Source of the DNA: an uncultured Saprospiraceae bacterium
GTDB lineage: Bacteria > Bacteroidota > Bacteroidia > Chitinophagales > Saprospiraceae
NCBI GenBank assembly: GCA_937929945.1
Contig: CALFUK010000156.1
Location: forward strand, 1 to 49,714
Length of the DNA: 49,714 nucleotides
Reading direction: 5' to 3'
In this document: piece by piece, positions 4,660 to 34,498 of the stretch
How positions within the stretch are numbered: position 1 is the first letter of the stretch
Layout: every line of letters begins with the position of its first letter
Made by a program: the position numbers and the translations under genes
Notes under the pieces: model-generated
Databases searched by the model: none
Told to the model about the DNA's origin: nothing
Seen by the model: only the letters and a program-made list of their open reading frames with translations

Positions 4660-5113
4660 TAGGGCGCATCTAAAGAGACTCCGGCGGAGGATTAAATTGC
4701 GTTATCTGCTGATTAGCAAGGGATCTTAAAGTTAAATGTATGAAACCCCGATACCTAAGATTTAGAAACCCGACGAAATGATTAAACGTAGTTGATTTGC
4801 TGACAGGCATTCAGTTCTAAATTATAAACATATGAAACGTCTATGAGGTAGATAATTAAGACACCCAAGGGGATGATTGAACTCTGTTATTTGCTGATTG
4901 GCATTCAGTTCCAAAATTTAAACATATGAAACGTCTATGACGTTGATAATTAAGACACCCAAGGGGATGATTAAACTTAGCTATTTGCTGACAGGCATTT
5001 CGCCCTGAAATTTAAACATATGAAACGTCTATGACGTAGATAGTTAAGACACCCAAGTGGATGATTGAACTTAGTTATTTGCTGATTGGTATTTCACCCT
5101 GAAATTTAAACAT
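4660..5113 (+). repeat. Tandem 94-bp repeat array ending at the start codon of the next gene
   Basis: Units begin with ATGAAA at 4740, 4832, 4926 and 5020, and the amidohydrolase ATGAAA is at 5114. Spacings are 92, 94, 94 and 94 bases. A more decayed partial unit covers about 4660-4739. Conserved blocks in each clear unit are ATGAAACGTCTATGA, ATAATTAAGACACCCAA, GGATGATT, TTATTTGCTGA and AAATTTAAACAT. By hand, units 4832 and 4926 differ at about 14 of 94 positions without gaps. The upstream units are the most diverged. A copy on the other strand lies at 34267-34360. The 4564-4659 stretch before the array holds nothing I recognise. Confidence 0.93.
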
Positions 5114-6301
5114 ATGAAAGCGATCATCAAGCGCAAGGCGAACCAATTACACCAGCAAGTGGTCGAGTGGCGGCGGCACATCCACGCAAACCCAGAACTA
5201 TCATTTGAGGAATATGAGACCAGTCAATACATCGCATCGATCTTAACAGCACTCGGCATAGATTACACAGATGGCTGGGCTAAGACGGGTATCGTGGCTG
5301 TCATCAAAGGCAAAAAGCCAAAGAAGAAAGTGGTGGCGCTGAGAGCAGACATAGATGCCCTCCCGATCCAAGAAAAGAATAGAGTCCCTTATAAATCTAA
5401 AAATAAGGGCGTCATGCACGCCTGCGGACATGATGTCCATACCGCTAACATGCTGGGAGCAGCAGCCATACTTCATGGTCTGAGAGATAAATTTGAAGGG
5501 ACAGTCAAAATCATCTTTCAGCCAGGAGAGGAGAAGCTGCCTGGTGGAGCCTCGCTCATGATCAAAGAAGGGGTACTGGACAATCCCAAACCAGATCTCA
5601 TCATGGCCCTGCATGTACATCCTCCTCTGGAGGTGGGAAAGGTAGGTTTCAGACCAGGTGTGTATATGGCCTCAGCTGATGAGCTCTATGTCAGCATCAA
5701 GGGCAAGGGTGGTCATGCAGCAGTCCCGCAGAATTGCATTGACCCGATTTTAATCAGCTCACATCTCATCACTGCGCTGCAGCAAGTCGTGAGTCGACGA
5801 GCGAATCCTAATATACCTTCTGTACTGTCATTTGGTAAAATTAATTCTATAGGTGGAGCGACGAATATCATTCCCAATGAAGTGAAACTGGAGGGCACCT
5901 TCAGGACATTCGATGAAGCTTGGCGTAAGCAGGCGCACAAGATCATGAAGTCTACAGCAGAGACATTGGCTGCTTCTATGGGCGGGTCATGCGAATTCAC
6001 CATAGCGAAGGGGTATCCTTTTTTACTCAATAATGAATCGCTGACAGAGCAGATGCACCAAGAAGCGAAAACTTATTTAGGTGACGAACAGGCTGTCAGC
6101 TTACCGATCCGGATGACAGCAGAAGATTTTGCCTTCTATTCGCATCAGATTCCTGCCTGCTTCTTCCGATTGGGTACTGGCAATAAAAAGCGGCGAATCA
6201 CCTCGCATGTACATACTGATACCTTCAATATAGATGAAGAAGCACTGCTTCATAGCATTGGTCTGACGAGCTGGTTAACCATACAAGCGTTAAAATCTTA
6301 A
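5114..6301 (+). CDS. M20-family metal-dependent amidohydrolase (N-acyl-amino-acid / hippurate hydrolase type)
   Basis: This 395-residue protein belongs to the M20D amidohydrolases, which split N-acyl amino acids (including N-acetyl-diaminopimelate, hippurate and auxin conjugates in relatives) with two metal ions. The catalytic block MHACGHDVHT (Cys104, His106, Asp107, His109), the acidic QPGEEKLPGG (Glu139/Glu140), the metal-binding ALHVHPP (about 166-171) and the dimerisation domain (GKGGHAAVPQ onward) are all present, as is MTAEDFAFYSHQIP near the end. There is no signal peptide, so it is cytoplasmic. Its ATG and second codon lie at the position where the next 94-bp repeat unit would begin, so the array supplies its whole upstream region. 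The exact substrate cannot be told. Confidence 0.9.
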   Translation: MKAIIKRKANQLHQQVVEWRRHIHANPELSFEEYETSQYIASILTALGIDYTDGWAKTGIVAVIKGKKPKKKVVALRADIDALPIQEKNRVPYKSKNKGVMHACGHDVHTANMLGAAAILHGLRDKFEGTVKIIFQPGEEKLPGGASLMIKEGVLDNPKPDLIMALHVHPPLEVGKVGFRPGVYMASADELYVSIKGKGGHAAVPQNCIDPILISSHLITALQQVVSRRANPNIPSVLSFGKINSIGGATNIIPNEVKLEGTFRTFDEAWRKQAHKIMKSTAETLAASMGGSCEFTIAKGYPFLLNNESLTEQMHQEAKTYLGDEQAVSLPIRMTAEDFAFYSHQIPACFFRLGTGNKKRRITSHVHTDTFNIDEEALLHSIGLTSWLTIQALKS

Positions 6302-33345: not shown

Positions 33346-33386
33346 CTGAGGTAGCATACCATAGGTAATATTAGCCTCAGGTTTTT
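33346..33386 (+). terminator. Probable terminator of the heme lipoprotein gene
   Basis: CTGAGG (33346-33351) pairs with CCTCAG (33375-33380), enclosing a smaller GGTA/TACC hairpin, and five T residues follow. A second hairpin CATCCAG/CTGGATG lies just upstream, around 33313-33333. The T-run overlaps the stop codon of the convergent mscS. Confidence 0.5.
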
Positions 33387-34266
33387 AATTGGCGGCATTG
33401 CTCGAAGCTTTTATTTTTGTCTGCTTACTCGTGATGTGATTGAAGACATGGCGGACCGTTTTTCTTCTGATTTGCCGCTGTAAGTCATAGTCCAGTCGCT
33501 TCAGCTTATACTGAAACTTGAGGTCCAAGGAGTCTTTCCTCATTTCTACGATCTTGATATTGTAAGCATCCGCCTCCAAAAATTCTTCAAAATCTCTGAG
33601 CGCCATGATCAGTTCATCTTCTAAGGACTGTATGTCATCCACCAGATTGATGTCGATCTGAAAGTCGATGCTCATGAGTCTAATATCACGCTTGGTATAA
33701 TTGATGATGTCATTTCCATAGACCTTAGAGTTAGGCATGATCAGTAAGTCATCGTCATCATTTAGTAGCTTTATTTTGAGCAGTTGTATTTCAGTGATTT
33801 TTCCTTTTTGGCCTGCGAGCTGGACATAGTCGTTGATTTCAAAATTTTTAGAAAAGCTAAAGTAAATACCTACTAAAAAGTCATTGATGTACTCCTTCAT
33901 GATGATGGAGATCGCCGCAGCGACGATACTCAATGAGGTAATCAGCGTCATCGGGTCTATGCCAAACATGCCAAACATAGCTACGATACCTCCAATGCCA
34001 ATCAGTACCTTGGCAATGTTGTTGATGCCAAACAGAAAGTTATCCTTAGAACTAGCACCGAGGCGATTTTTCTTACCATAAGAATAGCCCACAATCCGCC
34101 TGATCAGATCAATCGTGAGTACATAGATTAAGAAGCTAAATGATACCCGCAGGATATTGTGTCTGGAAGTCAAGTCATGAATGATCGGTACTGAATTAAG
34201 CAATAGGAGCAGTAAAATCAGCGCTACTAATTCTATTAATAGCCAGACTATTCTTGGTACTTTCAA
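33385..34266 (-). CDS. MscS-family mechanosensitive ion channel
   Basis: The 293-residue inner-membrane protein has membrane helices at about 7-28, 40-60 and 85-105, then the pore-lining helix of MscS channels (ITSLSIVAAAISIIMKEYINDFLVGI). It then has the beta domain (FEINDYVQLAGQKGKITEIQLLKIKL, then NSKVYGNDIINYTKRD) and a short C-terminal alpha/beta domain. Such channels open under membrane tension and release solutes on osmotic downshift. The start is a TTG at 34266. No closer ATG suits the first helix, and this TTG occupies the place of the ATG that opens each 94-bp repeat unit. The complete upstream region is one copy of that repeat. Confidence 0.88.
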   Translation of the reverse strand: MKVPRIVWLLIELVALILLLLLLNSVPIIHDLTSRHNILRVSFSFLIYVLTIDLIRRIVGYSYGKKNRLGASSKDNFLFGINNIAKVLIGIGGIVAMFGMFGIDPMTLITSLSIVAAAISIIMKEYINDFLVGIYFSFSKNFEINDYVQLAGQKGKITEIQLLKIKLLNDDDDLLIMPNSKVYGNDIINYTKRDIRLMSIDFQIDINLVDDIQSLEDELIMALRDFEEFLEADAYNIKIVEMRKDSLDLKFQYKLKRLDYDLQRQIRRKTVRHVFNHITSKQTKIKASSNAAN

Positions 34267-34360
34267 ATGTTTAAATTTTGGAACTGAATGCCTGTTAGCG
34301 AATAACTAAGTCCAATCATCTATTTAGGTGTCTTAATTATTTACGTCATAGACGTTTCAT
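34267..34360 (-). repeat. Dispersed copy of the 94-bp repeat in front of mscS
   Basis: Read on the minus strand, this segment begins ATGAAACGTCTATGACG and ends CCAAAATTTAAACAT. It aligns without gaps to the whole 94-bp unit at 4832-4925 with about 13 differences by hand. It is followed directly by TTGAAA, the start of the mscS gene, matching the ATGAAA that opens the next unit in the other array. The remaining intergenic sequence up to 34498 has an imperfect TGGCTCA/TGAGCCA pair (34365-34409) and nothing else recognised. Confidence 0.93.
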
Positions 34361-34498
34361 ATGGTGGCTCAAGATAAAGATATAGATTCACGTATCTGGA
34401 TGTGAGCCATCACATCTATTGTAAAGCTACTTTTTCATGATAAAGAACTTCGTTTAGTTGTATCAATAAAATATCTCAAGACCTAAGAGCTGGTCTGA

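Follow-up and report, generated by a model that had tools for sequence, protein, structure and literature searches.

REP/BIME elements and derivatives of IS200/IS605 are short repeats that are non-autonomous, carry a hairpin, show target specificity and cluster in tandem. Mycobacterial interspersed repetitive units (MIRUs), which are said to go back to Supply et al. in 1997, form tandem arrays at many loci and resemble in unit size the 94-base repeat that is the subject of this work. A description of MIRUs is also given in PMC12548453, and PMC4679880 reports that TAACTGA heptamer direct repeats concentrate just upstream of start codons and occur also in five Bacteroidetes. Here we analyze a 94-base repeat unit that stands directly before mscS in a 49,714-nucleotide stretch of DNA from an uncultured Saprospiraceae bacterium (hereafter the window; contig CALFUK010000156.1 of assembly GCA_937929945.1). 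The unit belongs to a genome-wide family, many arrays of which end exactly on a start codon, and we consider it likely that it constitutes a small interspersed mobile repeat targeting ATGAAA, with survivors on gene starts and arrays that grow beside the gene.

A single copy of the unit (ATGAAACGTC...TTTAAACAT; nhmmer 89.7 bits) occupies positions 34360-34267 on the minus strand and differs, without gaps, at 13 positions from 4832-4925 on the plus strand, at 17 from 4926-5019 and at 18 from 5020-5113; the initial annotation had reported this unit with about 13 ungapped differences to the first of these copies, and both its coordinates and its count are exact. In five shuffled versions of the window the best match of the mscS unit reaches only 43-48 of 94 bases, and a 103-base alignment of the unit with both of its boundaries to 4829-4931 scores 123 bits (E 4.9e-29). 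Directly 3′ of the unit, the right-hand boundary hexamer TTGAAA (34266-34261, minus strand), read directly, provides the start and second codon of a 293-aa MscS-type mechanosensitive channel (33385-34266, minus strand; Pfam PF00924, MS_channel_2nd, E 4.2e-14), and NTGAA occupies the same place in other genic arrays. At its left boundary (34355-34360, minus strand) the unit has an ATGAAA that is probably a duplicate of the landing site. The second array of the window ends likewise, on the ATGAAA (5114) of an M20-family amidohydrolase (5114-6301, plus strand; Pfam PF01546, E 7.1e-43; NCBIfam TIGR01891), and the two downstream genes are indeed as unrelated as first noted.

The window's own genome (G000, a draft of 5.07 Mb in 211 contigs, 99.77% complete) contains many more copies. 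A similarity search of G000 with the mscS unit gave at least 92 matches (the best 40 of 168 candidates were scored), and the left core GAAACGTCTATGACGTAGAT, allowing up to three mismatches, occurs at 234 places, against none for the reversed control. Our sample comprises the window and 70 fetched stretches of G000, 36 selected by similarity to the mscS unit and 34 by exact core, the latter drawn from roughly 100 of the 234 core places; the arrays it yields are fewer than the whole family, and the sample leans towards fresh units. Using a hidden Markov model (HMM) built from aligned units, with matches below 20 bits dropped, we found 203 units (consensus ATGAAACGTCTATGACGTAGATAATTAAGACACCCAAGTGGATGATTAAACTTAGTTATTTGCTGACAGGCATTCAGTTCTAAAATTTAAACAT) in 98 arrays of one (27 arrays), two (43), three (24), four (2) or five (2) units, with a period of 94 in 47 of 54 fresh neighbor pairs (units of at least 98 bases compared).

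Of the 98 arrays, 52 stop precisely where a reading frame on their own strand starts. We counted an array as genic if the NTG-AA at its end opens a frame on the same strand with 60 codons or more, or with 30 or more if the frame runs off the contig; open reading frames (ORF) were called mechanically, and in 5 of the 52 cases the frame has fewer than 100 codons or is truncated by a contig end. Frames shifted by one or two bases at the same places open in 0/77 and 5/77 cases, so that it is no accident that repeat end and start codon coincide, as was seen initially at two loci. Some decayed arrays lie on starts too (L033 5892-6079; L051 3063-3161; L192, 643-737 when read in the orientation of the array), and the downstream proteins checked are again unrelated: besides MscS and the M20 amidohydrolase, they include SusD (which points to a host from the Bacteroidota), an FGGY kinase, a semialdehyde dehydrogenase, a TPP enzyme, an alpha/beta hydrolase and UPF0261. 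Under the same rule the other 46 arrays do not stop at a gene start, three of these (L047, one in L165, L171) reaching the end of a contig. An intact ATGAAA is retained at the left edge of 47 arrays (26/52 genic, 21/46 others), a retention count that we use in place of a left-junction profile, the latter having been selected by a pattern containing NTGA. Five gene-less arrays (L031, L032, L039 on its minus strand, L052 and L173) end on ATGAAATGA, which reads Met-Lys-stop. At the end of L165 (C25), the end of L171 (C49) and the start of L180 (C102), an identical unit is followed by the same gene start, MKTIALIAHDG, which by eye we take to belong to a methylglyoxal synthase; the assembly may branch here, or an array may have been the site of a duplication or rearrangement, and the arrays concerned (one in L165) possibly represent a single locus that entered the count as many as three times.

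Unit-free relatives show where these genes start in the absence of the repeat. No unit was found in the same-genus genomes G001 and G002, nor in the 121 loci fetched for comparison, except at the mscS locus of G000 itself. For 17 genes of the first set, orthologues in G001 and G002 were taken at 45% identity or more, and a start was found in 31 of 32, at the aligned codon in 18 and within two codons in 29, in a count where small offsets are favored by taking the start nearest the aligned position. The second codon is AAA in 18 of these 31 unit-free orthologues versus 21/118 other genes in the same loci (p 2e-5); in G000 it is AAA in 35 of 302 genes. Amidohydrolase orthologues lacking the unit start with ATGAAA in G002 and GTGAAA in G001. 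At the FAA-hydrolase (FAH) locus of G159 the upstream gene's stop is followed by 15 nt and ATGAAAATC, with no unit, and in G049, of the same genus, by 5 nt and ATGAAAACGTC..unit..ATGAAAATT.

For mscS, no orthologue is listed in G001 or G002, and the comparison draws on nine unit-free MscS relatives. It had been argued initially that mscS starting far away in loci without the unit would make the match to the start codon accidental. In seven of the nine relatives an ATG lies no more than four codons from the mscS start, and the closest relative (L098, 60% identity) has its ATG at the residue aligned to position 1, although five of the nine, L098 included, align only from residue 29 or later, so that their offset assumes no gap; the other two lie further off, L105 with a TTG six codons upstream and L101 with an ATG located ten codons further downstream. 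Among GTDB contigs the nearest MscS relative is L098, which sits in a metagenome-assembled genome labelled Saccharospirillaceae, possibly a mislabelled bin or a case of transfer. Since relatives without the unit have their starts at roughly the same codon already, the unit more likely landed on the start than, as had been proposed, delivered it, and the alignments suggest that the unit mostly lands on existing starts.

What the unit itself carries can be described in part. Its right end is A-rich (AAAATTTAAACAT), and the last bases of the consensus have A at -6, -12 and -13 and C at -3; in PMC6847099, A at -6, -12 and -13 is reported to stimulate initiation in Flavobacterium johnsoniae. As the unit's last bases stand before the ATG, judging from the sequence it is plausible that the unit delivers local translation context. 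The delivery of a promoter, also suggested initially, finds no counterpart in the TAHHTTTG -7 element, which occurs in 0/203 units, a weak test given that only 2/50 upstream flanks carry it (shuffled rate 0.06). Some units only contain a small frame, with a stop overlapping the start in 34 and a stop 14 nt before it in 58; of the 40 units that adjoin genes of the listed classes, 11 show the first arrangement and 20 the second. Over codons 1-11 this frame shows no codon conservation (206/637 synonymous changes vs 126/613 and 277/621 in shifted frames), and a conserved peptide was rejected on this test. The left-end hairpin ACGTC-TAT-GACGT is conserved, but without compensatory changes, and the window has no Rfam match at gathering score; an RNA structure was set aside for want of support from either. 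By eye, the right half has two subtypes (CAGTTCCAA and TCGCCCTGA; alignment columns 76-84), which combine in mosaic fashion with other variable positions even within one array.

The arrays age in one direction. The second array of the window (plus strand) consists of the gene-adjacent unit p1 (5020-5113), p2 (4926-5019), p3 (4832-4925, the reference copy of the initial annotation), the older, decayed p4 (4740-4831; nhmmer match 4739-4837, 55.4 bits) and the remnant of a still older unit, p5 (4673-4745; partial, 23.6 bits). Among adjacent full-length units at least 20 bits apart, 21 pairs in the sample have the old unit on the left and the fresh one on the right and none the reverse (17 at genes, 4 elsewhere), and truncated pairs follow the same order in 7 cases and the opposite in 3, all three non-genic. 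The right unit scores better than the left in 39/40 genic vs 20/31 non-genic arrays; the genic figure is partly circular, as the class requires an intact right-hand start, and the full-length pair count is the cleaner one. Units without a single difference occur in separate arrays (L039 p2 and L057 p1), and the closest units of any one array differ by at least 1%. Array order and identical units fit repeated arrival beside the gene better than tandem duplication alone. An imperfect inverted repeat (TGGTGGCTCA ... TGAGCCATCA) was seen by eye at window positions 34362-34412, in the gap that separates the mscS unit from the AcrB-family gene upstream.

Much of the association with starts can be explained by a target that contains ATGAAA combined with purifying selection. 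Outside units, the sampled DNA has 372 ATGAAA sites in coding interiors, 82 between genes and 43 at start candidates, so that starts account for 43 of the 125 sites outside gene interiors, to be compared with 52 of the 98 arrays (Fisher p 0.006, a modest excess). Joining the flanks of an array gives a spanning open frame in at most 16/84 arrays vs 308/446 ordinary ATGAAA sites, 16/84 being an upper figure since three junction registers were tried for arrays and one for controls. We dropped the argument that no array lies inside a gene, as the unit carries stops, and used the joined-flank test instead. If interior insertions are lost to selection, starts make up a third of the targets that are left.

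A 28-base left-end pattern was found in 3 of 199 genomes of the bacterial family, G000 included, and in G000 alone among 395 genomes of the phylum, two samples that overlap in a few genomes. An HMM search of 60 relatives, in which the best 66 candidates per genome were scored and old relics may be missed, identified five diverged units in G049, of another genus, four of which end on a gene's ATGAAA. The genes concerned encode a class I aminoacyl-tRNA synthetase, which we take to be leuS, the FAA hydrolase and two proteins whose N-terminus, by eye, is of the export type. In G005 a single diverged unit (L194) lies about 50 bases upstream of a gene that is presumably DUF4212-like. The left third is largely common to the G000, G005 and G049 copies and the right half diverges, yet full-length copies also end on ATGAAA. 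The 28-base pattern has no exact match in viral contigs, where two matches of a shorter 17-base pattern were judged by context and HMM to be chance, and the unit has no match in plasmid or phage collections; a viral, plasmid or phage vector was rejected, there being no genuine match in those collections. Among the papers listed from the open-access literature searched, none was seen to report this repeat, and a search for Saprospiraceae together with intergenic repeats found none.

These observations can be combined into a mechanism in which the unit would be moved, probably by a recombination or transposition enzyme encoded elsewhere, and inserted in a single orientation at the hexamer ATGAAA, or at times at GTGAAA or TTGAAA, leaving the hexamer at both of its ends. 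Because an ATGAAA outside gene interiors is often a start codon followed by AAA, and insertions inside genes would be lost, survivors would gather precisely at the starts of genes. Insertion would place the native leader 94 bases upstream, and the A-rich right end would become the gene's local translation context, and for that reason the insertion would be tolerated. The start codon would keep the right-hand ATGAAA intact, and since later insertions would enter there, arrays would become old on the left and stay fresh beside the gene.

Several results weigh against this account. The mobilizing enzyme was not identified: the Y1 transposase family PF01797 has no match in the G000 draft, vs matches in 5 of 14 controls, and an IS200/IS605- or RAYT-mobilized repeat was rejected on this basis. 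No unit occurs in the 3.5-kb locus around the gene for a DRT2-like reverse transcriptase, its upstream region included (best nhmmer score in L259, 0.5 bits). Second codons other than AAA (e.g. ACC, GAA, TTT or AAC) are found in 13 of the 31 unit-free orthologues, and leuS starts with ATGGAA in G159 vs ATGAAA in G049, its relatives having GAA or GAT; for these two reasons, the unit may have replaced the native start hexamer in some genes. Neither the partial fifth copy of G049 (L199) nor the one copy in G005 sits on a start, and the conserved hairpin lacks compensatory changes. Among units of at least 90 bits, identity is higher within than between arrays (0.905 vs 0.881 at genes, p 0.0007; 0.909 vs 0.887 elsewhere, p 0.0017), and 12 of 79 units have their nearest neighbor in the same array vs 1.3% expected by chance: local duplication or conversion clearly happens as well.

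The first alternative to mobility is that the unit is a regulatory or translation-start module, which supplies leader, start and second codon and is kept because it controls genes. The better preservation of gene-abutting units, partly circular as it is, the adenines at positions reported as favorable in F. johnsoniae, and the orthologues without AAA, to which the unit may have brought its own, all agree with such a module. We nonetheless regard it as rather unlikely, given that the start is found at roughly the same codon where the unit is absent, that the downstream genes checked have no obvious pathway in common, that nearly half of the arrays do not end on a gene start, and that neither the promoter motif, weakly tested, nor codon conservation of the small frame was found. 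The consensus has C rather than A at -3, the main Kozak-like base, and the freshness of gene-adjacent units is not confined to the right end but extends through the left half. In decayed gene-adjacent units the bases by the ATG are not specially protected, with a mean divergence of 0.161 vs 0.205 in non-genic p1 units and 0.125 in decayed inner units.

It is quite unlikely, in our judgment, that no transposition took place and that old tandem arrays were exchanged between loci by recombination or gene conversion, with slippage altering the copy number. The mosaic subtypes, the regular period of fresh pairs and the excess of within-array neighbors and identity are what such exchange could produce, but new loci are not made by conversion alone, single fresh units occur at starts (mscS, L033, L178 and L182), none was found in the two same-genus genomes, and the old-left, fresh-right order is strict.

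DRT2-type defence reverse transcriptases make tandem-repeat complementary DNA (cDNA), and the only RVT_1 match in G000 is DRT2-like, but integration of such concatemeric cDNA as the origin of the arrays is highly improbable and largely refuted by the unit-free locus; the period of 94, which is not a multiple of 3, also speaks against it. The gene itself lies at L259:916-2418 (plus strand; C160), matches the PADLOC model at E 7.8e-131 and scores 368 bits against NCBIfam Drt2, under the cut-off of 390. Upstream of it is a 169-aa ORF matching the PADLOC SNc+LTD model (E 6.1e-22).

Set against the described systems, a small mobile repeat of this kind shares with REP/BIME and IS200/IS605 derivatives the short unit, the target specificity, the tandem clusters and perhaps the hairpin, and is set apart from them by a genome without Y1 transposase match and possibly by the absence of compensatory changes in its candidate hairpin. 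As with MIRUs, its short units occupy many intergenic loci, often in tandem, and are placed on start codons, in genes whose start occupies roughly the same codon in relatives lacking the unit; it differs in phylum, in its ATGAAA boundary hexamer, in its length of 94 (3n + 1) and in having the small ORF whose stop overlaps the downstream start, and thus its possible coupling, in part of the units only and without codon conservation. By description, then, the family appears to work like MIRUs in placement and tandem form, and we keep it out of the MIRU class because the coupling ORF is not a constant feature. With the TAACTGA repeats, as far as these are described in the part of PMC4679880 at hand, it has in common the position of direct repeats just upstream of start codons; it differs in having 94-base rather than 7-base units, in a consensus in which no TAACTGA is read, and in its exact junction on the start codon, for which that part has no counterpart.

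More tentatively, and with doubts that somewhat outweigh our confidence, we suggest that this could be a dedicated mobile element of a single bacterial family which has evolved the translation start, ATGAAA, into its homing site, enters from the 3′ side only and brings its own translation leader, by which the gene would survive, so that copies stacked at the start codon would form dated, directional arrays and the 5′ leaders before dozens of unrelated genes would have been rewritten genome-wide. If the mobile-repeat reading is true, dozens of genes in a single lineage have had their immediate 5′ leaders replaced by one small element, with their starts left unmoved, which would amount to a natural experiment on translation initiation without Shine-Dalgarno sequences. 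The expanded genome, genomes with relics and genomes without units are all at hand for comparison, and the question of how MIRU-like repeats move would be raised again in an unrelated phylum.
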